NCBI GenBank assembly: GCA_947650365.1
Contig: CANTAL010000196.1
Location: forward strand, 124,001-188,000
DNA length: 64,000 nucleotides
Direction: 5' to 3'
Origin: Chamaelirium japonicum
Taxonomy: Eukaryota; Streptophyta; Magnoliopsida; Liliales; Melanthiaceae
Program-made: the position numbers and the translations under genes
Part shown: positions 2,201 to 64,000 of the stretch, in pieces
Layout: the number at the start of each line of letters is the position of its first letter
Position numbering within the stretch: position 1 is the stretch's first letter
Notes under the pieces: model-generated
The model's database searches: none
Told to the model about the DNA's origin: nothing
What the model saw: only the letters and a program-made list of their open reading frames with translations

Positions 2201-3411
2201 ACATTTGTGAGAATGAATTAGAACGGATCGTACGAATGAATTAGAATGGATCGTACGAATGGATTAGAATGGATCGTACGAATGGATTAGAATGGATCGT
2301 ACGAATGAATTAGAATGGATCATACAAATGAATTAGAAAGGTTACATTCATGAGAATGAATTAGAATGGATCGTACGAATGAATTAGAATGGATCATAGG
2401 AATGAATTAGAATGGATCGTGCAAATGAATTAGAATGGATACATTCGTGCGAATGAATTAGAATGGATCGTAGGAATGAATTAGAATGGATCGTACTAAT
2501 GAATTAGAATGGTTACATTCGTGTGAATGAATTAGAATGGATCGTACGAATGGATTAGAATGGATCGTACGAATGGATTAGAATGGATCGTACGAATGAA
2601 TTAGAATGGATCGTACAAATGAATTAGAAAGGTTACATTTGTGAGAATGAAATAGAATGGATCATACGAATGAATTAGAATGGATCGTACGAATGGATTA
2701 GAATGGATCGTACGAATGGATTAGAATGGAACATACGAATTAATTAGAATGGATCATACAAATGAATTAGAAAGGTTACATTCGAGAGAATGAATTAGAA
2801 TGGATCGTACGAATGAATTAGAATGGATCATGCGAATGAATTTGAATGGATCGTACGAATGAATTAGAATGGATCGAACGAATGAATTAGAATGGATACA
2901 TTCGAGCGAATGAATTAGAATAGATCGTAGGAATGAATTAGAATGGATCATACGAATGAATTAGAATGGATCGTACGAACGAATTAGAATGGATCGTACA
3001 AACGAATTAGAATGGATCGTATGAACGAATTAGAATGGATCGTACGAATGAATTAGAATGGATCGTACGAATGAATTAGAATGGATACATTCGTGCGAAT
3101 GAATTAGAATGGATCGTACGAATGAATTAGAATGGATCGTGCGAATGAATTAGAATAAATTGTACGAATGAATTAGAATGGATCGTACGAATGAATTAGA
3201 ATGGATACATTTGTACGAATAAATTAGAATGGATTGTACGAATGAATTAGAATGGATACATTCTTGCGAATAAATTAGAATGGATCGTATATTCGTGCAA
3301 ATAAATTAGAATGGATCATTCGAATGAATTAGAATGGATCGTGCGAATGAATTAGAATGAATCGTACGAAAGCATTAGAATGGATCATACGAATGAATTA
3401 GAATGAATCGT
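2201..3411 (+). repeat. Satellite block 1, plus
   Basis: Starts in mid type-C unit directly at the copia LTR end. It has runs of GAATGGATTA-type units and later GAACGAATTA-type units near 2980-3040. It ends at a seamless plus-to-minus switch centred on CGTACG at 3409-3414. Confidence 0.95.
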
Positions 3412-3540
3412 ACGATCCATTCTAATTCATTTGTACGATCCATTCTAATTCATTCGCACGATCCATTCTTATTCATTCGTATGATCAATTCTAATTCATT
3501 CGTACAATCCATTCTAATTCAGTCGTATGAATGTATCATA
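3412..3540 (-). repeat. Satellite block 2, minus (short)
   Basis: About five inverted units. The right end is the recurrent junction GTCGTATGAATGTATCATA (3522-3540), which also occurs at 45981 and, in complement, at several other switches. Confidence 0.9.
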
Positions 3541-5139
3541 CGAATGAATTAGAATAGATATATTCATGCGAATGAATTAGAATGGATCGTACGAATGGAT
3601 TAGAATGGATCGTACGAATGGATTAGAATGGATCGTACGAATGGATTAGAATGGATTGTACGAATGGATTAGAATGGATCGTACGAACGAATTAGAATGG
3701 ATCGTATGAACGAATTAGAATGGATCGTACGAATGAATTAGAATGGATACATTCGAGCGAATAAATTAGAATGGTTCGTACGAATGAATTAGAATGGATC
3801 ATAGGAATGAATTAGAATGGATCATGCAAATGAATTAGAATGGATACATTCGTGCGAATGAATTAGAATGGATCGTAGGAATGAATTAGAATGGATCTTA
3901 CGAATGAATTAGAATGGTTACATTCATGCGAATGAATTAGAATGGATCGTACGAATGGATTAGAATGGATCGTACGAATGGATTAGAATGGATCGTACGA
4001 ATGAATTTGAATGGATCGTACAAATGAATTAGAAAGGTTACATTTGTAAGAATGAATTAGAATGGATCGTACGAATGGATTAGAATGGATCGTACGAATG
4101 GATTAGAATGGATCGTACGAATGGATTAGAATGGATCGTACGAATGAATTAGAATGGATCGTACAAATGTATTAGAAAGGTTACATTCATGAGAATGAAT
4201 TAGAATGGATCGTACGAATGAATTAGAATGGATTATGCGAATGAATTTGAATGTATCGTACGAATGAATTAGAATGGATCAAACGAATGAATTAGAATGG
4301 ATACATTCGAGCAAATGAATTAGAATAGATCGTAGGAATGAATAAGAATGGATCATACGAATGAATTAGAATGGATCGTGCGAATGAATTAGAATGGATC
4401 ATACGAATGAATTAGAATGGATATATTCGTGCGAATGAATTAGAATGGATCGTACGAATAAATTAGAATGGATCGTACGAATGAATTAGAATGAATCATA
4501 GGAATGAATTAGAATGGATCGTGCAAATGAAATAGAATGGATCGTATGAATGAATATGAATGGATCGTACGAATGAATTAGAATGGATACATTTGTGCGA
4601 ATGAATTAGAATGGATCGTACTAATGAATTAGAAAGGTTACATTTGTGAAAATGAACTAGAATGGATCGTACGAATGGATTAGAATGGATCGTACGAATG
4701 GATTAGAACGTATTGTACAAATGAATTAGAATAGATACATTTGTGCGAATGGATTAGAATAGATCGTACGAATGAATTAGAATGGATCGTGCGAATGAAT
4801 GAATTAGTATGGATCGTACGAATGGATTAGAATGGATCGTGCGAATGAATTAGAATGGATCGTACGAATGAATTAGAATGGATACATTCATGCGAATGAA
4901 TTAGAATGGATCGTACGAATGAATTAGAATAGATCATACAAATGAATTAGAATGGATCGTGCGAATGAATTAGAATGGATCATAGAATGGATCATGTGAA
5001 TGAATTATAATGGATACATTTGTACGAATAAATTAGAATGGATTGTATGAATGAATTAGAATGGATCGTGCGAATGAATTAGAATGGATCGTGCGAATGA
5101 ATTAGAATGGATCGTACAAATGAATTAGAAGGGATCGTA
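3541..5139 (+). repeat. Satellite block 3, plus
   Basis: Mixed A/B/C units with several GAATGGATTA runs (3594-3690, 3945-4000, 4072-4140). A slipped GAATGAATGAATTA unit occurs near 4790. Ends at a CGTACG palindrome near 5139. Confidence 0.93.
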
Positions 5140-5267
5140 CGATTCATTCGTACGATCCATTCTAATTCGCTCGAATGTATCCATTCTAACTCATTCGCTC
5201 GAATGTATCCATTCTAATTCATTCATACAAATGTTACATACTTGAGAATGAATTAGAATGGATCGTA
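5140..5267. repeat. Satellite micro-blocks: minus 5140-5233, plus 5234-5267
   Basis: About four inverted units are followed by a single plus unit with its C/B-like lead (ATGTTACATACTTGAG), then another plus-to-minus switch at CGTACG. This is one of the smallest strand islands in the window. Confidence 0.85.
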
Positions 5268-6740: not shown

Positions 6741-8635
6741 ATTCATACGACTGAATTAGAATGGATTGTACGAATGAATTAGAATTGATCATACGAATGA
6801 ATAAGAATGGATCGTACGAATGAATTAGAATGGATCGTGCGAATGAATTAGAATGGATCGTACGAACGAATTAGAATGGATATATTTGAACGAATAAATT
6901 AGAATGAATCATACGAATCAATTAGAATGGATCGTACGAATGAATTAGAATGGATCGTGCGAATGAATTAGAATCGATCGTACGAATGAATTAGAATGGA
7001 TCGTACGAATGAATTAGATCGTACGAATGAATTAGAATGGATCGTACGAATGAATTAAAATGGATATATTCATATGACTGAATTAGAATGGATCGTATGA
7101 ATTAATTATAATGGATCATACGAATGAATTTGAATGGATCGTGCGAATGAATTAGAATGGATCGTACGAACGAATTAGAATGGATCGTAAGAACGAATTA
7201 GAATGGATCGTACGAACGAATTAGAATGGATCATACGAATGGATTAGAATGGATCGTACGAATGGATCATGCGAATGAATTAGAATGGATCGTACGAATG
7301 AATTAGAATGGATACATTCGAGCGAATGAATTAGAACGCATTCTACAAATGAATTAGAATGGATCATACGAATGCATTAGAAAGGATACACTCGAGCGAA
7401 TGAATTATAACGCATTGTACGAATGAATTAGAATGGATCATGCGAATGAATTAAAAAGGATCGTACAAATGAATTAGAATGGATCGTGCGGATGAATTAG
7501 AATGGATTGTACGAACGAATTAGAATGGATCGTACGAACGAATTAGAATGGATCATACGAATGAATTAGAATGGACCGTACGAATGAATTAGAATGGATC
7601 ATATGAATGAATTAGAATGGATACATTTGTGCGATGAATAAGAATGGAGCGTACGAATGAATTAGAATGGAGCGTGCGAATGAATTAGAATGGATCGTAT
7701 GAATGAATTAGAATAGATATATTTGAACGAATAAATTAGAATGGATCATACGAATGAATTAGAATGGATCATATGAATGAATTAGAATGGATCATGAGAA
7801 TGAATTAGAATGGATCGTGCGAATGAATTAGAATGGATATATTCGTGCGAATGAATTAGAATGGATCGTGCGAATGAATTAGAATGGATCGTGCGAATGA
7901 ATTAGAATAGATCATACGAATGAATTAGAATGGATTGTACGAATGAATTAGAATGGATACATTCGTGCGAACGAATTAGAATGGATCATACGATTGAATT
8001 AGAATGGATCGTACGAATGAATTAGAATGGATCATGCGAATGAATTTGAATGGATCGTACGAATGAATTAGAATGGATCGAACGAATGAATTAGAATGGA
8101 TACATTCGAGCGAATGAATTAGAATAGATCGTAGGAATGAATTAGAATAGATCATACGAATGAATTAGAATGGATCGTACGAATGAATTGGAATGGATCG
8201 TACGAATGAATTAGAATGGATACATTCATGCAAATGAATTAGAATGGATCGTAGGAATGAATTAGAATGGATCATACGAATGAATTAGAATGGATCGTGT
8301 GAATGAAATAGAATGGATCGTACGAATGAATTAGAATGGATCGTACGAACGAATTAGAATGGATCGTACGAACGAATTAGAATGGATCGTACGAACGAAT
8401 TAGAATGGATCGTACGAATGAATTAGAATGGATATATTCGAGCGAATGAATTAGAATGGATCGTACAAATGAATTAGAAAGGTTACATTCGTGAGAATGA
8501 ATTAGAATGGATCCTACGAATGAAATAGAATGGATCGTATGAATGAATTAGAATGGATACATTGGAGCAAATGAATTAGAATGGATCGTACGAATGAATT
8601 AGAATGGATCGTGCGAATGAATTAGAATGGATCGC
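6741..8635 (+). repeat. Satellite block 5, plus
   Basis: Contains a shortened unit in which half 2 loses GAATGG (GAATTAGATCGTACG, about 7011-7025). This is followed near 7063 by a sequence like half of the recurrent junction (ATTCATATGACTGAATTAG) inside a plus block. Type A with GAACGAATTA forms a run near 7165-7230. Confidence 0.92.
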
Positions 8636-9088
8636 ACGATCCATTCAAATTCATTCGTACGATCCATTCTAATTCATTCGTACGATCCATTCTAATTCAT
8701 TCTCACAAATGTAACCTTTCTAATTCATTTGTATCATCCATTCTAATTCATTCGTACGATCCATTCTAATTCATTCGTACGATCCATTCTAATTCATTTG
8801 CTCAAATGTATCCATTCTAATTCATTCATACGATCCATTCTATTTCATTCGTAGGATCCATTCTAATTCATTCTCACGAATGTAACCTTTCTAATTCATT
8901 TGTACGATCCATTCTAATTCATTCGCTCGAATGTATCCATTCTAATTCATTCGTACGATCCATTCTAATTCGTTCGTACGATCCATTCTAATTCGTTCGT
9001 ACGATCCATTCTAATTCGTTCGTACGATCCTTTCTAATTCATTCGTACGATCCATTCTATTTCATTCGTACGATCCATTCTAATTCAT
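8636..9088 (-). repeat. Satellite block 6, minus
   Basis: Inverted units including three successive TTCGTTCGTAC variants (about 8965-9025). The switch back to plus is at TAATTCATTAGAAAGG, a join in which TTCATTAG is shared between strands instead of CGTACG. Confidence 0.9.
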
Positions 9089-9274
9089 TAGAAAGGTTAC
9101 ATTCGTGAGAATGAATTAGAATGGATACATTTGTGAGAATGAATTAGAATAGATTAGAATGGATCATACGAATGGAATAGAATCCATTCTAATTCATTTG
9201 TATGATCCATTCTAATTCATCGCACGATCTATTCTAATTCATTCGCTCGAATGTATCCATTCTAATTCATTCGT
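9089..9274. repeat. Satellite micro-blocks: plus 9089-9183, minus 9184-9274
   Basis: Two islands of about four units each. The first join is GAATAGAATCCATTCTAATTC, where adjacent half-units face each other. The second is the seamless ATTCGTACGAAT palindrome at 9269-9280. Confidence 0.87.
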
Positions 9275-9777
9275 ACGAATGAATTACAATGGATTGTATG
9301 AATGAATAAGAATGGATCGTACGAATGAATTAGAATGGATACATTCGTATGAATAAATTGGAATGAATCGTACGAATGAATTAAAATGGATATATTTGTG
9401 CGAATGAATTAGAATGGATCATACGATTGAATTTGAATGGATCGTACGAATAAATTAGAATGGATACATTTGTGCGATGAATAAGAATGGAGCGTACGAA
9501 TGAATTTGAATGGAGCGTACGAATGAACTAGAATGGATACCTTCGTAGGAATGAATAAGAATGGATCGTACGAATGGATTAGAATGGATCGTACGAATGG
9601 ATTAGAATGGATCGTATGAATGAATTAGAATGGATCATACAAATGAATTAGAAAGGTTACATTTGTGAGAATGAATTAGAATGGATCGTACGAATGAATT
9701 AGAATGGATCGTACGAATGAATTTGAATGGATCGTGCGATGAATTAGGATGGATCATACAAATGAATTAGAAAGGAT
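9275..9777 (+). repeat. Satellite block 7, plus
   Basis: Mixed A/B units, including GTGCGATGAATAAG variants that lack one A near 9475. Ends AAAGGATTCTAATCC, an opposing half-unit join. Confidence 0.9.
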
Positions 9778-10093
9778 TCTAATCCATTCGTACGATCCAT
9801 TCTAATCTATTCTAATTTATTCGCACAAATGAATCCATTCTAATTCATTCGCACGAATGTATCCATTCTAATTAATTCGTACGATCCATTATAATTCATT
9901 CGTATTATCCATTCTTATTTATTCGCACGATCCATTCTAATTGATTCGCACGATCCATTCTAATTCATTCGCACGAATGTATCCATTCTAATTCATTTGT
10001 ACGATCCATTCTAATTCATTCACATGATCCATTCTAATTCATTCGTGCGATCCATTCTAATTCATTTGTATGATCCATTCTAATTCATTCGTA
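9778..10093 (-). repeat. Satellite block 8, minus
   Basis: About 13 inverted units. Returns to plus at TTCGTACGAATAAATT, a seamless palindrome switch. Confidence 0.9.
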
Positions 10094-11341
10094 CGAATAA
10101 ATTAGAATGGATCATAGGAATGAATTAGAATGGATCGTGCAAATGAATTAGAATGGATACATTCGTGCGAATGAATTAGAATGGATCGTAGGAATGAATT
10201 AGAATGGATCGTACGAATGAATTATAATGGTTACATTCGTGCGAATGAATTAGAATGGATCGTACGAATGGATTAGAATGGATCGTACGAATGGATTAGA
10301 ATGGATCGTACGAATGAATTAGAATGGATCGTACAAATGAATTAGAAAGGTTATATTTGTGAGAATGAATTAGAATGGATCGTACGAATGAATTAGAATG
10401 GATCGTACGAATTGATTAGAATGGATCGTACGAATGAATTAGAATGGATCGTACGAATGCATTAGACTGGATACATTCGTGCGAATGAATTAGAATGGAT
10501 CGTACGAATGAATTAGAACGGATCGTACGAATGAATTAGAATGGATCGTGCGAATGAATTAGAATGGATCGTACGAATGAATAAGAATGGATACATTTGT
10601 GCGAATGAATTAGAATGGATCGTACGAATGAATTAGAATGGATCATACGAATGAATTAGAATGGATCGTACGAATGAATTAGAATGGATCGTGCGAATGA
10701 ATTAGAATAGATCATACAAATGAATTAGAATCTATACATTTGTGCGAATGAGTTTGAATGGATCATACGAATGAATTAGAATGGATCGTACGAATGAATT
10801 AGAATGGATCATACGAATGAATTAGAATGGATCGTGCGAATGAATTAGAATGGATTGTACGAATGAATTAGAATGGATACATTCGAGCGAATGAATTAGA
10901 ATAGATCGTAGGAATGAATTAGAATGGATCATACAAATGAATTAGAATGGATCGTATGAATGGATTTGAATGGATCGTACGAATGAATTAGAATGGATCG
11001 TACGAATGAATTAGAATAGCTCATACGAATAAATTAGAATGAATCGTACGAATGAATTAGAATGGATCGCACGAATGAATTAGAATGGATCATGCGAATG
11101 AATTAGAATGGATCGTACAAATGAATTAGAATGGATACATTCGTGCGAATGAATTAGAATGGATCGTGCGAATCAATTAGAATGGATCGTGCGAATAAAT
11201 AAGAATGGATAATACGAATGAATTAGAATGGATCGTACGAATTAATTAGAATGGATACATTCGTGCGAATGAATTAGAATGGATTCATTTGTGCGAATAA
11301 ATTAGAATAGATTAGAATGGATCGAACGAATGGATTAGAAT
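10094..11341 (+). repeat. Satellite block 9, plus
   Basis: Type A and B units, with a GGATTA-A-C cassette near 10255-10375. Ends GGATTAGAATCCATTCTAA, two half-units face to face. Confidence 0.92.
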
Positions 11342-11683
11342 CCATTCTAATTCATTTGTATGATCCATCCTAATTCATCGCACGATCCATTCAAGTTCAT
11401 TCGTACGATCCATTCTAATTCATTCGTACGATCCATTCTAATTCATTCTCACAAATGTAACCTTTCTAATTCATTTGTATGATCCATTCTAATTCATTCA
11501 TACGATCCATTCTAATCCATTCGTACGATCCATTCTAATCCATTTGTACGATCCATTCTTATTCATTCCTACGAAGGTATCCATTCTAGTTCATTCGTAC
11601 GCTCCATTCTAATTCATTCATACGCTCCATTTTATTCATCGCACAAATGTATCCATTCTAATTTATTCGTACGATCCATTCAA
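11342..11683 (-). repeat. Satellite block 10, minus
   Basis: Inverted units with an ATCGCAC-type shortened unit near 11385 and 11638. The right end is CCATTCAAATGGATCG near 11680. Confidence 0.9.
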
Positions 11684-12765
11684 ATGGATCGTACAAATGA
11701 ATTAGAATGGATCGTACAAATGAATTAGAATGGATCGTACGAATGAGTTAGAATGGATCGTGCGAATGAATTAGAATGGATCGTACGAATGAATTAGAAT
11801 GGATCCACCGAATGAGTTAGAATGGATTATACGAATGAATTAGAATGGATCGTACGAATAAATTAGAATGGATTGTGCGAATGAATTAGAATGGATCGTA
11901 TGAATGAATAAGAATGGATCGTACGAATGAATTAGAATGGATCGTGCGAATGAATTAGAATGAATCGTACGAATGCATTAGAATGGATACATTTATGCGA
12001 ATGAATTAGAATAGATCGTACGAATGAATTAGAATGGATCATACGAATAAATTAGAATGGATCGTGCGAATGAATTAGAATGGATCGTACGAATGAATTA
12101 GAATGGATCCACCGAATAAGTTAGAATGGATCATACGAATGAATTAGAATGGATCGTACGAATGAATTAGAATCGATCGTGCGAATGAATTAGAATGGAT
12201 CGTATGAATGAATAAGAATGGATCGTACGAATGAATTAGAATGGATCGTGCAAATGAATTAGAATGAATCGTACGAATGCATTAGAATGGATCGTACAAA
12301 TGAATTAGAATGAATCGTACGAACGAATTAGAATGGATCGTACGAACGAATTATAATGGATCGTATGAACGAATTAGAATGAATCGTACGAATGAATTAG
12401 AATGGATACATTCGAGCGAATGAATTAGAATGGATCGTACGAATGAATTAGAATGGATCATAGGAATGAATCAGAATGGATCGTGCAAATGAATTAGAAT
12501 GGATACATTCCTGCGAATGAATTAGAATGGATCATAGGAATGGATTAGAATGGATCGTACGAATAAATTAGAATGGATCGTGTGAATGAATTAGAATGGA
12601 TCGTATGAATGAATTAGAATGGATCCACCGAATGAGTTAGAATGGATCATACGAATGAATTAGAATGGATCGTATGAATGAATTAGAATGGATCATGCGA
12701 ATGAGTTAGAATGAATTGTACGAATGCATTAGAATGGATCGTACAAATGAATTAGAATGAATCGT
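11684..12765 (+). repeat. Satellite block 11, plus
   Basis: Carries three copies of the rare GGATCCACCGAAT variant (about 11812, 12107 and 12622). Their neighbouring units are similar, which points to local duplication at roughly 300-500 bp spacing. Ends at the CGTACG palindrome near 12765. Confidence 0.92.
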
Positions 12766-13936
12766 ACGATCCATTCTAATTCATTCGTCCGATCCATTCT
12801 AATTCATTCGTATGAATGTATCCATTCTAATTCATTCGTACAATCCATTCTAATTCATTCGCAAGATCCATTCTAATCCATTCATATGATCCATTCTAAT
12901 TCATTCCTACGATCTATTCTAATTCATTCGCTCGAATGTATCCATTCTAATTCATTCGTACAATCCATTCTAATTCATTCGCATGAACCATTCTAATTCA
13001 TTCGTATGATCCATTCTAATTCATTCGTACGATCCATTCTAATTCATTCATATGATCCATTCTAACTCATTCGCACAAATGTATCCATTCTAATTCATTC
13101 GTACGATCCATTCTAATTCATTCGCACGATCCATTCTAATTCATTCGTACGATCTATTCTAATTCATTCGTACGATCCATTCTAATTCATTAGCACAAAT
13201 GTATCCATTTAATTCATTCGTACGATCCATTCTAATTCATTCGCACGATCCATTCTAATTCATTCGTACGATCCATTCTAGTTCATTCGTACGATCCATT
13301 CTAATTCATTCGCACGATCCATTCTAATTCATTCGTATGATCCATTCTAATTCATTCGCACGAATGTATCCATTCTAATGCATTCGTATGATCCATTCTA
13401 ATTCATTCGTACGATCCATTCTAATCCATTCGTACGATCCATTCTAATTCATTCGTACGATCCATTCTAATTCATTCTCACAAATATAACCTTTCTAATT
13501 CATTTGTACGATTCATTCTAATTATTCGAATGATCCATTCTAATCCATTCGTACGATCCATTCTAATCCATTCGTACGATCCATTCTAATTCATTCGCAC
13601 GAATATAACCGTTCTAATTCATTCGTACGATCTATTCTAATTCATTCCTGCGATCCATTCTAATTCATTCGCACGAATGTATCCATTCTAATTCATTTGC
13701 ACGATCCATTCTAATTCATTCCTATGATCCATCCTAATTCATTCGTATAATCCATTCTAATTCATTCGCTCGAATGTATCCATTCTAATTCATTCGTACG
13801 ATCCATTCTAATTCATTCGTACGATCCATTCTAATCCATTCGTACGATCCATTCTAATTCATTCGTACAATGCGTTCTAATCCATTCGTACGATCCATTC
13901 TAATTCATTCGTACGATCCATTCTAATTCATTTGTA
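12766..13936 (-). repeat. Satellite block 12, minus
   Basis: Inverted A/B units, with inverted C units near 13480. Switch to plus at TTTGTACGAATG. Confidence 0.93.
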
Positions 13937-35871: not shown

Positions 35872-36062
35872 TAATTCCATTCTAATTCATTCGTACGATC
35901 CATTCTAATTCATTCATACAATCCATTCAAATTCATTCGTACGATGAAATCTAATTCATTCGCACAAATGTATCTATTCTAATTCATTCGTACAATGCGT
36001 TCTAATCCATTCGTACGATCCATTCTAATCCATTCGTACGATCCATTCTGATTCATTTGCAC
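35872..36062 (-). repeat. Satellite block 28, minus (short)
   Basis: Copy of 41912-42104. Includes the ACGATGAAATCTAATTC variant, which is shared only with that copy. Ends TTTGCACGAATTAGAATGG. Confidence 0.91.
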
Positions 36063-38673: not shown

Positions 38674-38819
38674 ATTCATACGACTGAATTAGAATGGATT
38701 GTACGAATGAATTAGAATTGATCATATGAATTAATTAGAATGGATCGTACGAATGAATTAGAATGGATCATGCGAATGAATTAGAATGGATCGAACAAAT
38801 GTATAAGAATGGATCGTAC
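38674..38819 (+). repeat. Satellite micro-block, plus (about six units)
   Basis: Sits between the recurrent junction on the left and GATCGTACGATTTATTC on the right. It is preserved as 44717-44861 and 58013-58149. Confidence 0.9.
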
Positions 38820-40204
38820 GATTTATTCTAATTCATTCGTACGATCCATTCTAATGCATTCGTACGATTCATTCTAATTCATTCGCACGATCCATTCTAA
38901 ATCATTCGTACGATCCATTCTAATTCATTCGTACGATCCATTCTAATGAATTAGTACGATTCATTCTAATTTATTCGCATAAATATATCCATTCTAATTC
39001 ATTCGTACGATCCATTCTAATTCATTCGCACGATCCATTCTAATTCATTCGCACAAATGTATCCATTCTAATTCATTCATACGATCCATTCTTATTCATT
39101 CATACGATCCATTCTAATTCATTTGCACGATCCATTCTAATTCATTCCTATGATCCATTCTAATACATTCGTACGATCCATTCTAATTCATTCGCTCGAA
39201 TGTATCCAATCTAATTCATTCGTACGATCCATTCTAATTCATTCGTACGATCCATTCTAATTCATTCTCACGAATGTAACCTTTCTAATTCATTTGTATG
39301 ATCCATTCTAATTCATTCGTACGATCCATTCTAATTCATTCGCACGATCCATTCTAATTTATTCGTACGATCCATTCTAATCCATTCGTACGATCCATTC
39401 TAATTCATTCATACGATCTAATTCATTCGTACAATCCATTCCAATTCATTCGTACGATCGATTCTAATTCATTCGTACGATCCATTCTAATTCTTTCGTA
39501 TGATCCATTCTAACTTATTCGTTTAAATGTATCCATTCTAATTCATTCGTACGATCCATTCTAATTCATTCGTACAATCCATTCTAATTCATTCGTACGA
39601 TCCATTCTTATTCATTCGTATGATCCATTCTAATTCATTCGTACGCACCATTCTTATTCATCGCACAAATGTATCCATTCTAATTTATTCTTACGATCTA
39701 TTCAAATTCAATTGTATGATCCATTCTAATTCATTCGCACGATCAATTCTAATTCATTCGTCCGTTCCATTCTAATTCATTCGCACGAATGTATCCATTC
39801 TAATTCATTCGTACGATTCATTCTAATCCATTCGTACGATCCATTCTAATTCATTCGTATGATCCATTCTAATTCATTCGTATGAATGTATCCATTCTAA
39901 TTTATTCGCACGATCCACTCTAATTCATTCGTACGATCCATTCTAATTCATTCGTATGATCCATTCTAATTCATTCGTATGATCCATTCTAATTCATTCG
40001 CATGATCCATTCAAATTCATTCGCACGATCTATTCTAATTCATTCGTACGATCCGTACGATCCATTCTAATTCATTCGCTCGAATGTATCCATTCTAATT
40101 CATTCATACGATCCATTCTAATTCATTCGTACGAGCCATTCTAATTCGTTCTCATGAATGTAACCTTTCTAATTCATTTGTATGATCCATTCTAATTCAT
40201 TCGT
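38820..40204 (-). repeat. Satellite block 31, minus
   Basis: Contains the boundary between the two copies of the ~5.1-kb tandem duplication (around 39520-39590). The shortened unit occurs inverted near 39415. Ends at ATTCGTACGAAT. Confidence 0.92.
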
Positions 40205-40616: not shown

Positions 40617-40654
40617 TGTGGGTGCAAATTTTGGCGAGAGTTTACCAACTACCA

Positions 40655-41075
40655 CGGGACCCACCGGCCCTGCCTGGTGGGCCCACGAAGACTACAGCGG
40701 GACCCACCGGCCCTACCTGGTGGGCCCACGAAGACTACAGCGGGACCCACCGGCCCTGCCTGGTGGGCCCACGAAGACTACAGCGGGACCCACCGGCCCT
40801 GCCTGGTGGGCCCACGAAGACTACAGCGGGACCCACCGGCCCTGCCTTGTGGGCCCACGAAGACTACAGCGGGACCCACCGGCCCTGCCTGGTGGGCCCA
40901 CGAAGACTACAGCGGGACCCACCGGCCCTGCCTGGTGGGCCCACGAAGACTACAGCGGGACCCACCGGCCCTGCCTGGTGGGCCCACGAGGACTACCGCG
41001 GGACCAACCGGCCCTGCCTGGTGGGCCCACGAGGACTACCACGGGACCCACCTGCCCTGCCTGGAGGACCCCCAG
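40655..41075 (+). repeat. Ten 43-bp tandem repeats in the solo LTR (U3)
   Basis: Units starting CGGGACCCACCGGCCCTG recur exactly every 43 bp at 40655, 40698, 40741, 40784, 40827, 40870, 40913, 40956, 40999 and 41042. The first seven intervals are almost identical (GAAGACTACAG), while the last joins read GAGGACTACC and the final unit is divergent and shortened. Nine units carry the palindrome GTGGGCCCAC, which contains TGGGCC (site II-like) and GGGCCCAC (fits the TCP consensus GGNCCCAC). They lie upstream of the TATA box, where enhancer repeats occur in plant LTRs; binding is inferred. Because 43 is not a multiple of 3 and the unit has no stop in this orientation, all three frames stay open. 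Confidence 0.95.
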
Positions 41076-41125
41076 ATACGGCAGCAAAAACCGCCATTTG
41101 CCCCGGAATTCCTCCCCGGGAATCC

Positions 41126-41133
41126 TATAAATA
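41126..41133 (+). promoter_or_regulatory. Putative TATA box of the solo LTR
   Basis: TATAAATA in the context ATCCTATAAATAGCAG, 50 bp downstream of the 43-bp repeats and upstream of a CT-rich leader-like stretch (about 41210-41245). A good match to the plant TATA consensus; activity is not shown. Confidence 0.7.
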
Positions 41134-41529
41134 GCAGAGTCTTCGAATGTAAAAGGATCGAATTCTCAGTTCTAAAAACCAGAGCTCTGGGATTTTCAAC
41201 TTCTGATCTACCATCTCTCTTCGATCTTCTTCTCTCTTTCGAAGAGATCAGGGAGCTTTCAGTGATACTCGGCCTGTCGAGGTCACTTCAACCTAAGTGT
41301 TAGTGAATTCGGGTTGCTCCCTATAGCACGGAGACGTAGGCTTCGGCTGAACTCCGAGATCACTTCTCTTGTGACAAAATCTCTCTATCTCTGATTGCTT
41401 TTCTGTTTACATATCAAAAAAGCAACAACTTCAACCAACCGATCGACCAACGATCTTCGACATTAACTTCGACTCCAATTGACTGGTGCTGCGAAGGTCT
41501 TCGGGTCGGCACGAAGATTTTCCCCCACA

Positions 41530-41911
41530 CGAATGAATTAGAATGGATCGTACGAATGAATTAGAATGGATCGTTCGAATGAATTAGAATCGATCGTACG
41601 AATGAATTAGAATGGATCGTACGAATGAATTAGATCGTACGAATGAATTAGAATGAATCGTACGAATGAATTAAAATGGATACATTCATACGACTGAATT
41701 AGAATGGATCGTGCGAATGAATTAGAATGGATACATTCTTGCGAATAAATTATAATGGATCGTATGAATGAATTAGAATGGATCGTGCGAATGAATTTGA
41801 ATGGATCGTACGAATGAATTAGAATGGATCGTGCGAATGAATTAGAATGAATCGTACGAATGCATTAGAATGGATCGTACGAATGGATTAGAATGGATCG
41901 TATAAATGAAT
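41530..41911 (+). repeat. Satellite block 32 continued, plus, right of the solo LTR
   Basis: Begins with CGAAT (41530-41534), the right target-site duplicate, and resumes the same unit order as 35488-35871. Contains the shortened GAATTAGATCGTACG unit near 41629. Ends at GAATTC (41908-41913). Confidence 0.93.
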
Positions 41912-42104
41912 TCTAATTCCATTCTAATTCATTCGTACGATCCATTCTAATTCATTCATACAATCCATTCAAATTCATTCGTACGATGAAATCTAATTCA
42001 TTCGCACAAATGTATCTATTCTAATTCATTCGTACAATGCGTTCTAATCCATTCGTACGATCCATTCTAATCCATTCGTACGATCCATTCTAATTCATTT
42101 GCAC
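41912..42104 (-). repeat. Satellite block 33, minus (short)
   Basis: Copy of 35872-36062, displaced by about 6,042 bp (5.12 kb plus the LTR insertion). Confidence 0.91.
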
Positions 42105-43151
42105 GAATTAGAATGGATCGTACGAATAAATTAGAATGGATCGTACGAATGGATTAGAATGGATCGTACGAATGGATTAGAATGGATCGTACGAATGAAT
42201 TAGAATGGATCATACAAATGAATTAGAAAGGTTACATTCGTGAGAATGAATTAGAATGGATCGTACGAATGGATTAGAATGGATCGTACGAATGGATTAG
42301 AACGCATTGTACGAATGAATTAGAATGGATCGTACGAATGAATTAGAATGGATACATTCGTGAGAATGAATTAGAATGGATTGTACGTATGAACAAATAA
42401 ATTAGAAAGGTTACATTCGTGAGAATGAATTAGAATGGATTGTACGAATGAATTAGAATGGATCATGCGAATGAATTTGAATGAATTTTAAGAATGAATT
42501 AGAATGGATCGAACGAATGAATTAGAATGGATCATACGAATGAATTAGAATAGATCGTAGGAATGAATTAGAATGGATTGTACGAATGAATTAGAATGGA
42601 TCGTAGGAATGAATTAGAATGGATCCACCAAGTGAATTAGAATGGATCGTACGAATGAATTAGAATAGATCGTACGAATGAATTAGAATGGATCATACGA
42701 ATGAATTAGAATGGATCGTACGAATGAATTAGAATGGACCGTACGAATGAATTATAATGAATCGTACGAATGAATTAGAATGGTTCGTACGAATGGATGA
42801 GAATGGATCGTATGAATGGATTAGAATGGATCGTACGAATGAATTAGAATGGATCATACAAATGAATTAGAAAGGTTACATTTATGCGAATGAATTAGAA
42901 TGGATCGTACGAATGAATTAGAATGGATCGTATGAATGAATTAGAATGGATACATTTGTGCGAATAAATTAGAATGGATCGTGCGAGTGAATTAGAATGG
43001 ATCGTATGAATGAATTAGAATGGATCGTACGAATGAATTAGAATGGATCGTATGAACGAATCAGAATGGATCGTACGAATGAATTAGAATGGATACATTC
43101 GAGCGAATGAATTAGAATGGATCATACGAATGAATTGGAATGGATCGTACT
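42105..43151 (+). repeat. Satellite block 34, plus
   Basis: Copy of 36063-37110, including the unusual GTACGTATGAACAAATAAATT unit near 42385 (36345 in the other copy) and the GGATCCACCAAG variant. Confidence 0.92.
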
Positions 43152-44716
43152 ATTCATTCTAATTCATTCGTACGATCCATTCTAATGCATTCGTACGATT
43201 CATTCTAATTCATTCGTACGATCGATTCTAATTCATTCGTACGATCCATTCTAAACCATTCGTATGATCCATTCTAATTCATTCGCACGAATGTAACCAT
43301 TCTAATTCATTCGTACGATCCATTCTAATTCATTCCTACGATCCATTCTAATTCATTCACTCGAATGTATCCATTCTAATTCATTCCTATGATCCATTCT
43401 AATTCATTCATACGATCCATTCTAATCCATTCGTACGATCCATTCTAATCCATTCGTACGATCCATTCTAATTCATTCGCACGAATGTAACCATTCTAAT
43501 TCATTCGTACGATCCTTTCTAATTCATTCCTACGATCCATTCTAATTCATTCGTATGATCCATTCTAATCCATTCGTACAATCCATTCTAATTCATTCGC
43601 ACGAATGTAACCATTCTAATTCATTCGTACGATCCATGCTAATTCATTCGCACGATCCATTCTAATTCATTCGCACGATCCATTCTAATTCATTCGTACG
43701 ATCCATTCTAATTCATTCGCACGAATGTATCCATTCTAATGCATTCGTACAATTCATTCTAATTCATTCGTACGATCCATTCTAATCCATTCGTACGATC
43801 CATTCTAATTCATTCGTACGATCCATTCTAATTCATTCTCACAAATGTAACCTTTCTAATTCATTTGTACGATCCATTCTAATTCATTCGTATGATCCAT
43901 TCTAATTCATTCGCACGATCCATTCTAATTCATTCGTATGAACCATTCTAATTCATTCCTACGATATATTCTAATTCATTCGCTCGAATGTATCCATTCT
44001 AATTCATTAGTTCAATCCATTCTAATTCATTCGTACGATCCATTCAAATTTATTCGGATGATCCATTCTAATTCATTCGTACGATCCATTCTAATTCATT
44101 CTCACGAATGTAATCTTTCTAATTCATTTGTATGATCCATTCTAATTCATTCGTACGATCCATTCTAATCTATTCGTACGATCCATTCTAATCCATTCGT
44201 ACGATCCATTCTAATTCATTCTTACAAATGTAACCTTTCTAATTCATTTGTACGATCGATTCTAATTCATTCGTACAATCCATTCTAATCCATTCGTACG
44301 ATCCATTCTAATCCATTCATACGATCCATTCTAATTCATTCGCACGAATGTAACCATTCTAATTCATTCGTACGATCCATTCTAATTCATTCCTACGATC
44401 CATTCTAATTCATTCGCACGAATGTATCCATTCTAATTCATTTGCACTATCCATTCTAATTCATTCCTATGATCCATTCTAATTCATTCGTACGATCCAT
44501 TCTAATTCATTCGCTCGAATGTATCCATTCTAATTCATTCGTACGATCCATTCTAATTCGTTCATATGGTCCATTCTAATTCGTTCGTACGATCCATTCT
44601 AATTCATTCGTACGATCCATTCTAATCCATTCGTACGATCCATTCTAATGCATTCGTACGATCCATTCTAATTCATTCGCATGAATATATCTATTCTAAT
44701 TCATTCGTATGATACA
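43152..44716 (-). repeat. Satellite block 35, minus
   Basis: Second of three copies; the third is 56267-58012. The 65-codon frame at 43938-44135 is again satellite. Right end is the recurrent junction (44708-44726). Confidence 0.93.
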
Positions 44717-44861
44717 TTCATACGACTGAATTAGAATGGATTGTACGAATGAATTAGAATTGATCATATGAATTAATTAGAATGGATCGTACGAATGAAT
44801 TAGAATGGATCATGCGAATGAATTAGAATGGATCGAACAAATGTATTAGAATGGATCGTAC
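44717..44861 (+). repeat. Satellite micro-block, plus
   Basis: Copy of 38674-38819, with the same AATTGATCATATGAATTAATT unit. Confidence 0.9.
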
Positions 44862-45990
44862 GATTTATTCTAATTCATTCGTACGATCCATTCTAATGCA
44901 TTCGTACGATTCATTCTAATTCATTCGCACGATCCATTCTATATCATTCGTACGATCCATTCTAGTTCATTCGTACGATCCATTCTAATGAATTAGTACG
45001 ATTCATTCTAATTTATTCGCATAAATATATCCATTCTAATTCATTCGTACGATCCATTCTAATTCATTCGCACGATCCATTCTAATTCATTCGCACAAAT
45101 GTATCCATTCTAATTCATTCATACGATCCATTCTTATTCATTCATACGATCCATTCTAATTCATTTGCACGATCCATTCTAATTCATTCCTATGATCCAT
45201 TCTAATTCATTCGTACGATCCATTCTAATTCATTCGCTCGAATGTATCCAATCTAATTCATTCGTACGATCCATTCTAATTCATTCGTACGATCCATTCT
45301 AATTCATTCTCACGAATGTAACCTTTCTAATTCATTTGTAGGATCCATTCTAATTCATTCGTACGATCCATTCTAATTCATTCGCACGATCCATTCTAAT
45401 TTATTCGTACGATCCATTCTCATCCATTCGTACGATCCATTCTAATTCATTCATACGATCTAATTCATTCGTACGATCCATTCTAATTCATTCGTACGAT
45501 CGATTCTAATTCATTCGTACGATCGATTCTAATTCATTCGTACGATCCATTCTAATTCATTCGTATGATCCATTCTAACTTATTCTAATTCATTCTAATT
45601 CATTCCTATGATCCATTCTAATTCATTCGCACGAATGTATCCATTCTAATTCATTTGTATCATCCATTCTAATTCATTCGTGCGATCCATTCTAATTCAT
45701 TCGTACAGATGTATCCATTTTAATTCATTCGCATGATCCATTCTAATTCATTCGTACGATCTATTTTAATCCATTCTAATTCATTCGTACGAACCATTCT
45801 AATTCATTCCTACGATCCATTCTAATTCATTCGCATGATCCATTCGTACGATCCATTCTAATCCATTCGTACGATCCATTCTAATTCATTCATACGATCC
45901 ATTCTAATTCATTCGTACGATCCATTCTAATTCATTCGTTTGATCAATTCTAATTCATTCGTACCATCCATTCTAATTCAGTCGTATGAA
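44862..45990 (-). repeat. Satellite block 36, minus
   Basis: Follows 38820-39520 up to about 45585, then enters sequence shared with 58985-59380. At 45576-45600 (CTAACTTATTCTAATTCATT) the middle of the segment present at 58850-58985 is missing, a deletion or an old crossover point. Ends in the recurrent junction in complement (45981-45999). Confidence 0.92.
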
Positions 45991-46567: not shown

Positions 46568-47371
46568 CGATCCATTCAAATTCATTCGTCCGATCCATTC
46601 TAATTCATTCGCACGAATGTATCCATTCTAATTTATTCGTACAATCCATTCTAATTCATTCGCACGATCCATTCTAATTCATTCGTATTTTCCATTCTGA
46701 TTCATTCCTACGATCTATTCTAATTCATTCGCTCGAATGTATCCATTCTAATTCATTCGTACGATCCATTCTAATTCTTTCGTATGATCCATTCTAACTC
46801 ATTCGGAAGATCCATTCTAATTCATTCGTACGATCTATTCTAATTCATTCGCACGATCTATTCTAATTTATTCGTACGATCCATTCTAATTCATTCGCAC
46901 GATCGATTCTAATTCATTCGTACGATCCATTATAATTCATTCGCACAAATGTATCCATTCTAATTCATTCGTACGATCCAGTCTAATTTATTCATATGAT
47001 CCATTCTAATTCATTCGTACGATCCATTCTAATTCATTCATACAATCCATTCAAATTTATTCGTACGATCCATTCTTATTCATTCATACGATCCATTCTA
47101 ATTCATTCGCACAATCCATTCTAATTCATTCATACGATCCGTTCTAATTCATTCGTATGATCCATTCTAACTCATTCGGTGGATCCATTCTAATTCATTC
47201 GTACGATCCATTCTAATCCATTCGTACGATCCATTCTAATTTATTCGTACGATCCATTCTAATTCATTCGTACGATCCATTCTAATTCATTCGCACGATC
47301 CATTCTAATTCATTTGTACGATCCATTTTAATTCATTCGCATAATCCATTCTAATTCATTCGTATGATACA
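46568..47371 (-). repeat. Satellite block 38, minus
   Basis: Copy of 59956-60757, with the GGTGGATCC variant near 47178. Right end is the recurrent junction (47363-47381). Confidence 0.92.
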
Positions 47372-50300
47372 TTCATACGACTGAATTAGAATCGATTGTA
47401 TGAATGAATTAGAATTGATCATACGAATGAATTAGAATGGATCGTACGAATAAATTAGAATGGATCGTATGAATGGATTAGAATGGATCGTACGAATGAA
47501 TTAGAATGGATTCACCGAATGAGTTAGAATGGATCATACGAATGAATTAGAATGGATCGTACGAAGGAATTAGAATGGATTGTGCAAATGAATTAGAATG
47601 GATCGTATGAATGAATAAGAATGGATCGTACAAATGAATTTGAATGGATTGTACGAATGAATTAGAATGGATCGTACGAATGAATTAGAATGGATCATGC
47701 GAATGAATTAGAATAGATTGTACGAATGAATTAGAATGGATCGTATGAATAAATTAGAATGGATCGTGCGAATGAATTAGAATGGATCGTACGAATGAAT
47801 TAGAATGGATCCACCGAATAAGTTAGAATGGATCATACGAAAGAATTAGAATGGATCATACAAATGAATTAGAATGGATTGTGTGAATGAATTAGAATGG
47901 ATTGTGCGAATGAATTAGAATGGATCATACGAATGAATTAGAATGGATCGTGCGAATGAATTAGAATGAATCGTACAAATGCATTAGAATGGATCGTACG
48001 AATGAATTAGAATGGATCGTATGAACGAATTAGAATGGATCGTACGAACGAATTAGAATGGATCGTATGAACGAATTAGAATGGATCGTACGAATGAATT
48101 AGAATGTATCATGCGAATGAATTAGAATGGATCGTACGAATAAATTAGAATGGATCATAGGAATAAATTAGAATGGATTGTGCAAATAAATTAGAATGGA
48201 TACATTCATGCGAATGAATTAGAATGGATCGTAGGAATGAATTAGAATGGATCGTACGAATGAATTAGAATAGTTACATTCGTGCGAATGAATTAGAATG
48301 GGTCGTAGGAATGAATTAGAATGGATCGTACGAATGAATTAGAATGGTTACATTCGTGCGAATGAATTAGAATGAATCGTACGAATAGTTTAGAATGGAT
48401 CGTAGGAATGAATTAGAATGGATCGTACGAATGGATTAGAATGGATCGTACGAATGGATTAGAATGGATCGTACGAGTGGATTAGAATGGATCATACGAA
48501 TGAATTAGAAAGGTTACATTCGTGAGAATGAATTAGAATGGATACATTCGAGCGAATGAATTAGAATGGATCGTACGAACGAATTAGAATGGATCGTACG
48601 AACGAATTAGAATAGTTACATTCGTGCGAATGAATTAGAATGGATCGTACGAATGAATTAGAATAGTTACATTCGTGCGAATGAATTAGAATGGATCGTA
48701 CGAACGAATTAGAATGGATCGTACGAACGAATTAGAATGCATCGTGCGAATGAAGTAGAATAGATCGTATGAATAAATTAGAATGGATCATACGAATGAA
48801 TTAGAATGGATACATTCATGTGAATGAATTAGAATGGATTGTACGTTTGAATTAGATTGGATTGTGCGAATGAATTAGAATGGATACATTCGTGCGAATG
48901 AATTAGAATAGATCGTATGAATGAATTTGAATGGATCGTACGAATGAATTAGAATGGATCGTGCGAATGAATTAGAATGGATCGTACGAATGAATTAGAA
49001 TGGATCATACGAATGAATTAGAATGGATACATTCGAGCGAATGAATTAAAATGGATCGTACGAATGAATTAGAATGGATCATAGGAATGAATTAGAATGG
49101 ATCCTGCAAATGAATTAGAATGGATACATTCGTGCAAATGAATTAGAATGGATCGTAGGAATGAATTAGAATGGATCGTACGAATGGATTAGAATGGATC
49201 GTACGAATGAATTAGAATGGATCGTACAAATGAATTAGAAAGGTTACATTTGTGAGAATGAATTAGAATGGATCGTACGAATGAATTAGAATGGATCGTA
49301 CGAATGAATTAGAATGGATACATTCGTGCGAATGAATAAGAATGGATCATACGAATGAATTAGAATGGATCGTGCAAATGAATTAGAATGGATCATACGA
49401 ATGAATTAGAATGGATACATACGAATGAATTAGAATGGATCATACGAATGAATTAGAATACATCATGTGAATGAATTAGAATGGATCGTACGTTTGAATT
49501 AGATTGGATTGTGCGAATGAATTAGAATGGATACATTCGTGCGAATGAATTAGAATAGATCGTATGAATGAATTTGAATGGATCGTACAAATGAATTAGA
49601 ATGGATCGTGCGAATAAATTTGAATGGATCGTGCGAATGAATTAGAATGGATCATACGAATGAATTAGAATGGATCGTACGAATGAATTAGAATGGATAC
49701 ATTCGTGCGAATGAATTAGAATGGATCATACGAATGAATTAGACTGGATCGTACGAATAAATTAGAATGGATACATTCATATGAATGAATTAGAATGGAT
49801 CGTACGATTGAATTAGAATGGATTGTACAAATGGATTAGAATGGATCGTATGAATGAATTAGAATGGATCATACAAATGAATTAGAAAGGTTACATTCGT
49901 GAGAATGAATGAGAATGGATCGTACGAATGAATTAGAATGGATCATGCGAATGAATTTGAATAGATTGTACGAATGAATTAGAATGGATCGAACGAATGA
50001 ATTAGAATGGATCATACGAATGAATTAGAATAGATCGTAGGAATGAATTAGAATGGATCGTAGGAATGAATTACGAATGAATTAGAATGGATCGTGCGAA
50101 TGAATTAGAATGGATCGTACGAATGAATTAGAATGGATCGTACGAACGAATTAGAATGGATCGTACGAACGAATTAGAATGGATCGTACTAATGAATTAG
50201 AATGGATTTGAATGGATTGCATGAATGAACTAGAATGGATCATACGAATGAATTGGAATGGATCGTACGAATGAATTAGAATTGATACATTCATGCAAAT

Positions 50301-58012: not shown

Positions 58013-58149
58013 ACTTAATTAGAATGGATTGTACGAATGAATTAGAATTGATCATATGAATTAATTAGAATGGATCATACGAATGAATTAGAATGGATCG
58101 TGCGAATGAATTAGAATGGATCGAACAAATGAATTAGAATGGATCGTAC
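58013..58149 (+). repeat. Satellite micro-block, plus
   Basis: Third copy of the six-unit island at 38674 and 44717. Confidence 0.9.
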
Positions 58150-59955: not shown

Positions 59956-60757
59956 CGATCCATTCAAATTCATTCGTCCGATCCATTCTAATTCATTCGC
60001 ACGAATGTATCCATTCTAATTTATTCGTACAATCCATTCTAATTCATTCGCACGATCCATTCTAATTCATTCGTATGATCCATTCTGATTCATTCCTACG
60101 AACTATTCTAATTCATTCGCTCGAATGTATCCATTCTAATTCATTCGTACGATCCATTCTAATTCTTTCGTATGATCCATTCTAACTCATTCGGAAGATC
60201 CATTCTAATTCATTCGTACGATCCATTCTAATTCATTCGCACGATCTATTCTAATTTATTCGTACGATCCATTCTAATTCATTCGCACGATCGATTCTAA
60301 TTCATTCGTACGATCCATTATAATTCATTCGCACAAATGTATCCATTCTAATTCATTCGTACGATCCATTCTAATTTATTCATATGATCCATTCTAATTC
60401 ATTCGTACGATCTATTCTAATTCATTCGTACAATCCATTCAAATTCATTCGTACGATCCATTCTTATTCATTCATACGATCCATTCTAATTCATTCGCAC
60501 AATCAATTCTAATTCATTCATACGAACCATTCTAATTCATTCGTATGATTCATTCTAACTCATTCGGTGGATCCATTCTAATTCGTTCGTACGATCCATT
60601 CTAATCCATTCGTACGATCCATTCTAATTTATTCGTACGATCCATTCTAATTCATTCGTACGATCCATTCTAATTCATTCGCACGATACATTCTAATTTA
60701 TTTGTACGATCCATTTTAATTCATTCGCATGATCCATTCTAATTCATTCGTATGATA
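59956..60757 (-). repeat. Satellite block 46, minus
   Basis: Copy of 46568-47371. Right end is an exact recurrent junction (60751-60769). Confidence 0.92.
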
Positions 60758-63700
60758 CATTCATACGACTGAATTAGAATGGATTGTATGAATGAATTAG
60801 AATTGATCATACAAATGAATTAGAATAGATCGTACGAATAAATTAGAATGGATCGTATGAATGGATTAGAATGGATCGTACGAATGAATTAGAATGGATC
60901 CACCGAATGAGTTAGAATGGATCATACGAATGAATTAGAATGGATCGTACGAAGGAATTAGAATGGATTGTGCGAATGAATTAGAATGGATCGTATGAAT
61001 GAATAAGAATGGATCGTACAAATGAATTTGAATAGATTGTACGAATGAATTAGAATGGATCGTACGAATGAATTAGAATGGATGATGCGAATGAATTAGA
61101 ATAGATTGTACGAATGAATTAGAATGGATCGTACGAATAAATTAGAATGGATCATACGAATGAATTAGAATGGATCGTACGAATGAATTAGAATGGATCC
61201 ACCGAATAAGTTAGAATGGATCATACGAATGAATTAGAATGGATCGTACAAATGAATTAGAATGGATTGTGCGAAAGAATTAGAATGGATCGTACGAATG
61301 AATTAGAATGGATCGTGCGAATGAATTAGAATGAATCGTACGAATGCATTAGAATGGATCATACGAATGAATTAGAATGGCTCGTATGAACGAATTAGAA
61401 TGGATCGTACGAACGAATTAGAATGGCTCGTATGAACGAATTAGAATGGATCTTTCGAATGAATTAGAATGTATCATGCGAATGAATTTGAATGGATCGT
61501 ACGAATGAATTAGAATGGATCATAGGAATAAATTATAATGGATTGTGCAAATGAATTAGAATGGATGCATTCGTGCGAATGAATTAGAATGGATCGTAGG
61601 AATGAATTAGAATGGATCGTACGAATGAATTAGAATAGTTACATTCGTGCGAATGAATTAGAATGGATCGTAGGAATGAATTTGAATGGATCGTATGAAT
61701 GAATTAGAATGGTTACATTCGTGGGAATGAATTAGAATGAATCGTACGAATGGTTTAGAATGGATCGTAGGAATGAATTAGAATGGATCATATGAATGGA
61801 TTAGAATGGATCGTACGAATGGATTAGAATGGATCATACGAATGAATTAGAAAGGTTACATTCGTGAGAATGAATTAGAATGGATCGTACGAATGAATTA
61901 GAATGGATACATTCGAGCGAATGAATTAAAATGGATCGTACGAATGAATTAGAATGGATCATAGGAATGAATTAGAATGGATCCTGCAAATGAATTAGAA
62001 TGGATACATTCGTGCAAATGAATTAGAATGGATCGTAGGAATGAATTAGAATGGATCGTACGAATGAATTAGAATGGTTACATTCGTGCGAATGAATTAG
62101 AATGGATCGTACGAATGGATTAGAATGGATCGTACGAATGAATTAGAATGGATCGTACAAATGAATTAGAAAGGTTACATTTGTGAGAATGAATTAGAAT
62201 GGATCGTACGAATGAATTAGAATGGATCGTACGAATGAATTAGAATGGATACATTCGTGCGAATGAATAAGAATGGATCATACGAATGAATTAGAATGGA
62301 TCGTGCGAATGAATTAGAATGGATCATACGAATGAATTAGAATGGATACATACGAATGAATTAGAATGGATCATACGAATGAATTAGAATGCATCATGTG
62401 AATGAATTAGAATGGATCGTACGTTTGAATTAGATTGGATTGTGCGAATGAATTAGAATGGATACATTCGTGCGAATGAATTAGAATAGGTCGTATGAAT
62501 GAATTAGAATGGATCGTACAAATGAATTAGAATGGATCGTGCGAATAAATTTGAATGGATCGTGCGAATGAATTAGAATAGATCATACAAATGAATTAGA
62601 ATGGATCGTACGAATGAATTAGAATGGATACATTCGTGCGAATGAATTAGAATGGATCGTACGAAAGAATTAGACTGGATCGTACGAATAAATTAGAATG
62701 GATACATTCATACGAATGAATTAGAATGGATCGTACGATTGAATTAGAATGGATTGTACAAATGGATTAGAATGGATCGTATGAATGAATTAGAATGGAT
62801 CATACAAATGAATTAGAAAGGTTACATTCGTGAGAATGAATGAGAATGGATCGTACGAATGAATTAAATGGATCATGCGAATGAATTTGAATGGATTGTA
62901 CGAATGAAATAGAATGGATCGAATGAATGAATTAGAATGGATCATACGAATGAATTAGAATAGATCGTAGGAATGAATTAGAATGGATCGTAGGAATGAA
63001 TTACGAATGAATTAGAATGGATCGTGCGAATGAATTAGATCGGATCGTACGAATGAATTAGAATGGATCGTACGAACGAATTAGAATGGATCGTATGAAC
63101 GAATTAGAATGGATCGTACTAATGAATTAGAATGGATTTGAATGGATTGCATGAATGAATTAGAATGGATCATACGAATGAATTGGAATGGATCGTACGA
63201 ATGAATTAGAATTGATACATTCATGCAAATGAATTAGAATAGATCGTACGAATGAATTAGAATGGATCATACGAATGAATTAGAATGGATCGTGCGAATG
63301 AATTAGAATGGATCTTGCGAATGAATTAGAAAGGATACATTCGTACAAATGAATTAGAATAGATCGTACGAATGAATTAGAATGGATCATACAAATGAAT
63401 TAGAAAGGTTACATTTGTGAGAATGAATTAGAATGGATCGTACGAATGAATTAGAATGGATCGTACGAATGGATTAGAATGGGTCGTACGAATGAATTAG
63501 AATGGATACATTTGTACGAATAAATTAGAATGGATTGTATGAATGAATTAGAATGGATACATTCTTGCGAATAGATTAGAGTGGATCGTATATTATTGCA
63601 AATAAATTAGAATGGATCGTACGAATGAATTAGAATGGATCTTGCGAGTGAGTTAGAATGGATCATACGAATGGATTAGAATGGATCGTATGAATGAATT

Positions 63701-64000
63701 AGAATGGATCATACAAATGAATTAGAATGGATACAATTGTGCGAATGAATTAGAATGGATCGTACGAATGAATTAGAATGGATCGTATGAATGAATTAGA
63801 ATGGATACATTCGAGCGAATGGATCATACGAATGAATTAGACTGAATTGTACGAATGAATTAGAATAGATCGTGCGAATGAATTAGAATGGATTGTACGA
63901 AAGAATTAGAATGGATCATTCGAATGAATTAGAATGGATCATATGAATGAATTAGAATCGATCGTGCGAATGAATTAGAATGGATCGTACGAATGAATTA
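60758..64000 (+). repeat. Satellite block 47, plus, runs off the window
   Basis: Copy of 47372-51070. The match is still running at base 64000, so both the array and the duplication extend beyond the window. Confidence 0.93.

Follow-up and report, generated by a model that had tools for sequence, protein, structure and literature searches.

In the holocentric lilioid Chionographis japonica, the CENH3 units are underlain by the satellite Chio1/Chio2, CENH3 binding being a published result of chromatin immunoprecipitation (PMC10264360). According to passages of that paper, its monomers measure 23 and 28 bp and stand apart by 5 bp plus one substitution, an 8-bp dyad is present, the short monomer has three dyads, and forward and reverse arrays are mixed. 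The species has 2n = 24 and a primary assembly of 1,526 Mb with twelve chromosome scaffolds, from high-fidelity (HiFi) reads at 58.5x, and each of the twelve chromosomes bears several spaced megabase arrays (PMC10264360). In work on the sister genus published in 2025, the orientation of Chio is described as frequently alternating and the 9-mer TTCGTACGA is named as shared (PMC12722358). Here we analysed such an array in a window of 64,000 nucleotides (contig C208, positions 124,001 to 188,000) and on the contig around it, and we found that its strand switches concentrate on a single 8-bp dyad, TCGTACGA. The array type and its alternating strands are already published, so that the finding as first stated in a preliminary description of this DNA is not new; the position of the switches on the dyad is a new detail beyond the published array.

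Chama, the satellite of Chamaelirium luteum in the sister genus, is centromeric like Chio and has the 9-mer TTCGTACGA, whereas its unit is 60 bp long and its arrays are homogeneous with a single consistent orientation (PMC12722358). In the beetle Tribolium madens, the (peri)centromeric macro-dyad satellites form opposed subarrays as seen here, with few inversion sites present in many copies; unlike the present array, they consist of ~110-bp elements plus larger repeats, mostly with two subarrays per array, degenerate units stand at the inversion sites, and their sequence is unrelated to the satellite of the window (PMC13081366). With units of 23 and 28 bp in 57 blocks, the window has neither the ~110-bp elements nor the two subarrays of these macro-dyads. 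Template switching at short inverted repeats, of the kind known as origin-dependent inverted-repeat amplification (ODIRA), is said in passages of the literature to make inverted copies and to keep the short repeat at the junctions; it has been described at yeast gene loci, and human variants have been proposed to arise by it. The mechanism depends on an origin and yields inverted triplications.

Units and blocks of the array

The basis throughout is assembled sequence, with detailed work on one contig: C208 is 535,678 bp long, 258 kb of it were analysed, and the assembly of 1.52 Gb (1,519 Mb) comprises 3,253 contigs, among them C12 with 69.9 Mb and C13 with 3.9 Mb. Tandem Repeats Finder gave periods of 23, 46 and 69 along the array. 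Units were scanned on both strands with the 16-base core GAATGAATTAGAATGG, allowing up to 4 substitutions, which retained 2,527 units in the window (1,398 on the + strand and 1,129 on the - strand). Over positions 2,211-64,000 they form 57 single-strand runs separated by 56 strand switches, in exact agreement with the roughly 56 changes in 62 kb that had been described before. The Chio1/Chio2-like array of 57 alternating-strand blocks (2,201-64,000) is divided by an inserted element into a first part at 2,201-40,616 and a second at 41,530-64,000, and it extends past the window. Blocks hold a median of 34 units (range 1-158). If units were oriented independently, ~1,249 switches would be expected in the window, so the 56 seen reflect a block structure and not noise.

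The satellite unit is 23 bp long, GAATGAATTAGAATGGATCGTAC, and its consensus is identical on the + and - strands, which bears out the earlier claim of one consensus for both. A 28-bp variant makes up ~18% of the regular units in the window, where its consensus, GAATGAATTAGAATGGATACATTCGTGC, was built from 426 units. In the 258 kb of C208, the dominant same-strand period is 23 bp (7,377 times), followed by 28 bp (1,613 times), and the two consensus sequences differ by a 5-bp insert plus one substitution (GGAT[ACATT]CGTGC in the longer, GGATCGTAC in the shorter). The 23-bp unit has exactly three axis classes with a dyad of at least 4 bp, one of which is 8 bp, and the tandem consensus contains TTCGTACGA on its minus strand. 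Monomer sizes, the difference between the monomers, dyads, 9-mer and mixed orientation thus all agree with Chio1/Chio2, and no difference in kind was found with respect to the passages of PMC10264360, which give no switch positions within the unit. These features make it almost certain that the array is the Chio1/Chio2 satellite of centromeres, with Chionographis japonica as its very probable source.

On C208 the satellite exceeds the window: it begins at 15,154 and still continues where the analysed 258 kb stop, contains two further insertions and switches strand 220 times (110 + to - and 110 - to +). Genome-wide, the exact 46-base dimer occurs 162,480 times in forward and 164,476 times in reverse orientation, and a reversed-pattern control gave 0 and 0. 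On contig C1, junctions lie at ~1.4-3.2, 10.3-10.5, 17.2-18.1 and 27-30.6 Mb among the matches listed.

Strand switches and the 8-bp dyad

The 23-bp unit carries a single 8-bp self-complementary dyad, TCGTACGA, which spans the unit boundary. We described each switch by the spacing from the last core on one strand to the first core on the other. Along the 258 kb, 66 of the 110 + to - switches have spacing 10, for which the axis is centred on TCGTACGA; spacings 15 (9/110) and 20 (4/110) are what this axis gives when one or two 28-bp units are involved, although not all of these switches were confirmed by eye. Among the - to + switches, 32 of 110 have spacing 4, with the axis on TCGTACGA, while a GATC axis corresponds to spacing 17 (35/110) with the 28-bp insert and to spacing 12 (6/110) without it. 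In the window taken alone, spacing 10 is found at 16 of 28 + to - switches, and spacings 4 and 17 at 7 and 14 of 28 - to + switches. Examples are the + to - switch at 8,631-8,640 (spacing 10), whose axis lies on the dyad TCGCACGA, a variant of TCGTACGA, and the - to + switch at 10,091-10,094 (spacing 4), also with its axis on the dyad.

Because duplication copies switches, these were clustered by 600 bases of context, giving 116 clusters at a threshold of 0.78. Plain spacings on the 8-bp dyad are found in 28 of 56 + to - and 18 of 60 - to + clusters, against 1 in 23 expected, and the excess persists with looser clustering (8/20 and 5/26). Furthermore, when junction microhomology was measured without choosing a motif (53/56 and 52/60 clusters kept, the rest having more than 4 mismatches), it reached at least 7 bp in 27 of 53 + to - and 18 of 52 - to + fitted clusters; these 45 of 105, against 1.7% of 529 phase pairs, place junctions on short inverted repeats as in ODIRA-like switching. 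The dyad is intact at 17/28 and 11/18 dyad junctions, compared with 40% in the array, a difference of modest significance (p = 0.022 and 0.059).

Irregular same-strand breakpoints are not enriched in the dyad, 25% lying inside it versus 30% expected. This comparison used 120 junctions with a 23-bp left unit, from 148 fitted among 230 distinct ones (82 with more than 3 mismatches were dropped), and it counts breakpoint positions where the switch analysis counts axes, so that the two measures are not strictly equal. These figures give no support to the idea that the dyad is prone to breakage in general.

Within the 23-bp unit, conservation in the window is lowest (0.77-0.85) at three dyad bases, the G, A and C of CGTAC. 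Loss of CpG would fit this variability, since high CpG methylation of Chio has been reported (PMC10264360). The switches are nonetheless located on the dyad, despite the low conservation of these three bases.

For the whole genome we counted patterns with exact flanks at spacings 0-28, where each of the 29 spacings would receive 3.4% if the matches were evenly spread. We counted 47,929 + to - matches, with 5,010 at spacing 10, 14,016 at spacing 15 and 4,498 at spacing 17, and 66,315 - to + matches, with 9,936 at spacing 4 and 7,098 at spacing 12. The matches are copies and not events, a few being nested, and the counts are incomplete, exact flanks recovering 40 and 22 of the 110 and 110 switches in the 258 kb. 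The five spacings queried had mostly first been seen enriched on C208 or among the listed C1 matches, which makes these counts a check and not a full distribution. A + to - family of spacing 17 with a GTGCAC axis is frequent in C1:1,365,193-3,152,545, the first satellite region of that contig, and the junction types that were amplified seem to differ from region to region.

The literature searched, comprising passages of PMC10264360, PMC12722358, PMC13081366 and PMC10766186 and listings of other papers (figures, supplements and subscription papers excepted), contains no report of dyad-centred switching. The papers on Chio describe it as unknown whether centromere identity depends crucially on the 8-bp motif, and their authors suggest that hairpins of the shared 9-mer could collapse replication forks (PMC10264360, PMC12722358). 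The bias of switches to the dyad, together with the lack of a same-strand bias, makes the hairpin idea testable: dyads may be strand-exchange pivots. The array itself is already published; the junction map may matter.

Duplication, inverted copies and the origin of the switches

By flank similarity, the 56 switches of the window form 36 clusters (at one threshold) and hence do not represent 56 events. Direct duplications are prominent, including one of 12.8 kb (94.3% identity) and one of 4.5 kb (97.0%), over a background of ~83%. The latter joins the stretch at 35,487-39,959, with its switches, to its direct duplicate at 41,529-45,989. Chains of rare-word anchors number 129 direct and 5 inverted. 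As direct duplications dominate, many switches are inherited copies, and a plain count of switches exceeds the number of underlying events. We also looked for long recent inverted duplications and discarded them: the 45 longest inverted matches of 2,855 are only 80.5-84.8% identical, while identity is as high as 97.0% among the 45 longest direct matches.

Recent inverted copies are present. They are short, and several end at or near switch points. Some switches flank copies that are 91-98% identical, against the background of ~83-85%; a list of 60,000 matches and a scan in 400-base windows, taken as far as listed, serve as indications only. The arm at 8,279-8,632 (+), which ends near the switch at 8,631-8,640, is repeated with 98.3% identity over 354 bp on the opposite strand at 8,736-9,089 (-), whose end lies at the switch near 9,090. 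A stretch of 663 bp containing a switch (9,431-10,093) has an inverted copy at 11,024-11,685 (98.0%), and the 409 bp at 10,092-10,500 (+) are 96.6% identical to the opposite-strand stretch 13,340-13,747 (-). Two related - to + switches of spacing 17 have mirror arms with a 46-bp shift, at 47,362-47,378 (91.6% over 451 columns) and 60,750-60,766 (91.1% over 449 columns). ODIRA-like switching would leave an inverted copy beside the junction; mirror similarity exceeds the 99th percentile of the null at 11 of the 134 testable switches (ten among 68 - to + and one among 66 + to -), most lying below it. At the ten - to + switches, the arms are offset by 23-46 bp in seven cases and lie without offset in three, which is compatible with a fold-back exactly at the switch but does not require one.

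We favour template switching at the dyad, multiplied by direct duplication, as the probable origin of the switches. Since TCGTACGA is its own reverse complement, any two intact copies of the dyad are also inverted copies of each other. A growing 3' end would quit its template at the dyad, during replication or break repair, and the freed end would pair with an opposite-strand dyad in a nearby unit and be extended in the reverse direction over some hundreds of bases. It would return by another jump, at a TCGTACGA dyad or at the weaker GATC dyad. The traces of one such event would be a pair of switch points and one short inverted copy. Direct duplications of kilobase segments would later increase the number of switches, and the mirror symmetry of the older ones would be lost through homogenisation and mutation.

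The main rival is simple inversion, in which two breaks are joined through dyads by microhomology-mediated joining and the interval is flipped without copying. It explains the dyad-centred junctions equally well, and the lack of mirror arms at most switches speaks in its favour. Each such inversion would add one + to - and one - to + switch, in keeping with counts of 110 and 110, but alternation forces near equality in any model. What makes this explanation unlikely in our view is that several switches are flanked by inverted copies, which simple inversion does not produce, and that breaks at dyads should also yield same-strand junctions there, where they are not enriched. The repeated inversion proposed in the preliminary description could still apply at most junctions, but it would not be expected to leave the inverted copies at these several switches.

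That description had also inferred that both orientations evolve together, which is borne out. Indeed, the frequencies of minor variants on the two strands are strongly correlated (r = 0.976 in the window and 0.989 in the 258 kb), 74% of the + and 78% of the - 23-bp units of the window recur letter for letter on the opposite strand, and shared 40-mer pairs are 561,328 direct and 517,003 inverted, words with more than 40 copies being excluded. Exchange or mixing between orientations therefore occurs. It is very unlikely, however, that homologous recombination between already opposed blocks created the pattern, as had also been suggested: exchange between + and - copies should only flip the intervening stretch, moving switches while their number stays constant, and it predicts no dyad-centred junctions, which are observed. 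New switches would thus need a jump between strands, and a jump fits the dyad.

Marginally less probable still is that selection maintains the alternation, large inverted subarrays or hairpins aiding the centromere while the origin of each switch is incidental. A chromatin role has been proposed for the (peri)centromeric satellites of Tribolium madens with their conserved inversion sites (PMC13081366), and the dyad is discussed as a hairpin former in the Chio literature; against this, the centromeres of Chamaelirium luteum use arrays of constant orientation (PMC12722358), and the 1-158 units of the blocks here show no preferred size. Assembly errors, of which the window could be suspected for lying on an unplaced contig of 535,678 bp, are an extremely unlikely source of the switches, in line with the earlier judgement. 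Indeed, the series of switches recur in direct duplicates that are 85-97% identical and differ by point mutations, junctions have thousands of matches genome-wide, those listed being on the large contig C1, two inserted elements show matching target duplications, and the alternation has been published from a HiFi assembly, sequenced at 58.5x (PMC10264360, PMC12722358).

Several observations weigh against template switching at the dyad as the general explanation. Junctions vary between loci: spacing 10 accounts for just 5 of the 100 first-listed + to - matches on C1, and the 4,498 of 47,929 genome-wide + to - matches at spacing 17 have a GTGCAC axis. Microhomology is only 0-2 bp in 20/53 and 17/52 fitted clusters, and the independence of clusters is approximate, their number ranging from 79 to 155 across thresholds of 0.74-0.85. 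The mirror-arm test covers 134 of the 220 switches (86 with arms under 300 bp were excluded), and at most of them mirror arms are absent above background, clusters exceeding the 99th percentile of the null in 4/33 and 1/29 cases. An overall shift of mirror-arm identity is weakly significant over all switches (p = 0.002 and 0.02) and is not significant by clusters (p = 0.20 and 0.21). Finally, Chama of Chamaelirium luteum has the 9-mer TTCGTACGA yet a constant orientation (PMC12722358), so the motif alone is insufficient for switching.

Template switching might also have produced the 28-bp variant, by a quasi-palindrome-templated insertion. The insert ACATT includes CATT, which is complementary to the AATG on the other side of the dyad, and creates the near-palindrome CATTCG-TG-CGAATG; four matching bases are suggestive only. 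More tentatively, we consider it possible, if somewhat doubtful, that TCGTACGA is a strand-exchange pivot whose template switching made both a large share of the switches, meaning the ~114,000 genome-wide pattern matches with copies included, and the 28-bp Chio2 variant. If so, dyads of centromere repeats would persist partly by driving rearrangement and spread, and not solely through a function in chromatin.

Inserted elements and neighbouring repeats

The array of the window begins at 2,201, immediately after a long terminal repeat (LTR) at 71-2,200 (+). This is the right LTR of a complete element that lies within the array, its left LTR being outside the window, and the target-site duplication ACATT occupies 2,201-2,205. 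The whole element (C208:115,500-126,211) is ~10.7 kb long, with LTRs of ~2.13 kb that are 99.6% identical (8 mismatches in 2,132). These nearly identical LTRs and the target duplication indicate a young insertion. Judged by the sequence that precedes its right LTR, it may be a Ty1/copia element; the 22 residues before that LTR matched no family in Pfam.

The element that interrupts the array at 40,617-41,529 (+) is a solo LTR with CGAAT as target-site duplication on both sides, and it contains a 43-bp tandem array of 9.9 copies (40,648-41,071). Its family has at least 63 matches in the genome (40 of 6,659 candidates scored), and several pairs 6-8 kb apart resemble full elements. Elsewhere on C208, an insertion of ~0.76 kb with internal tandem repeats (82,101-82,863) has a left edge that resembles the reverse-complemented end of this family. 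Just outside the satellite border, a tandem array with a period of ~119 bp and ~97% identity between shifted copies occupies C208:12,320-13,994, and a 1.2-kb relative of it, 92.7% identical, is found at the start of the contig.

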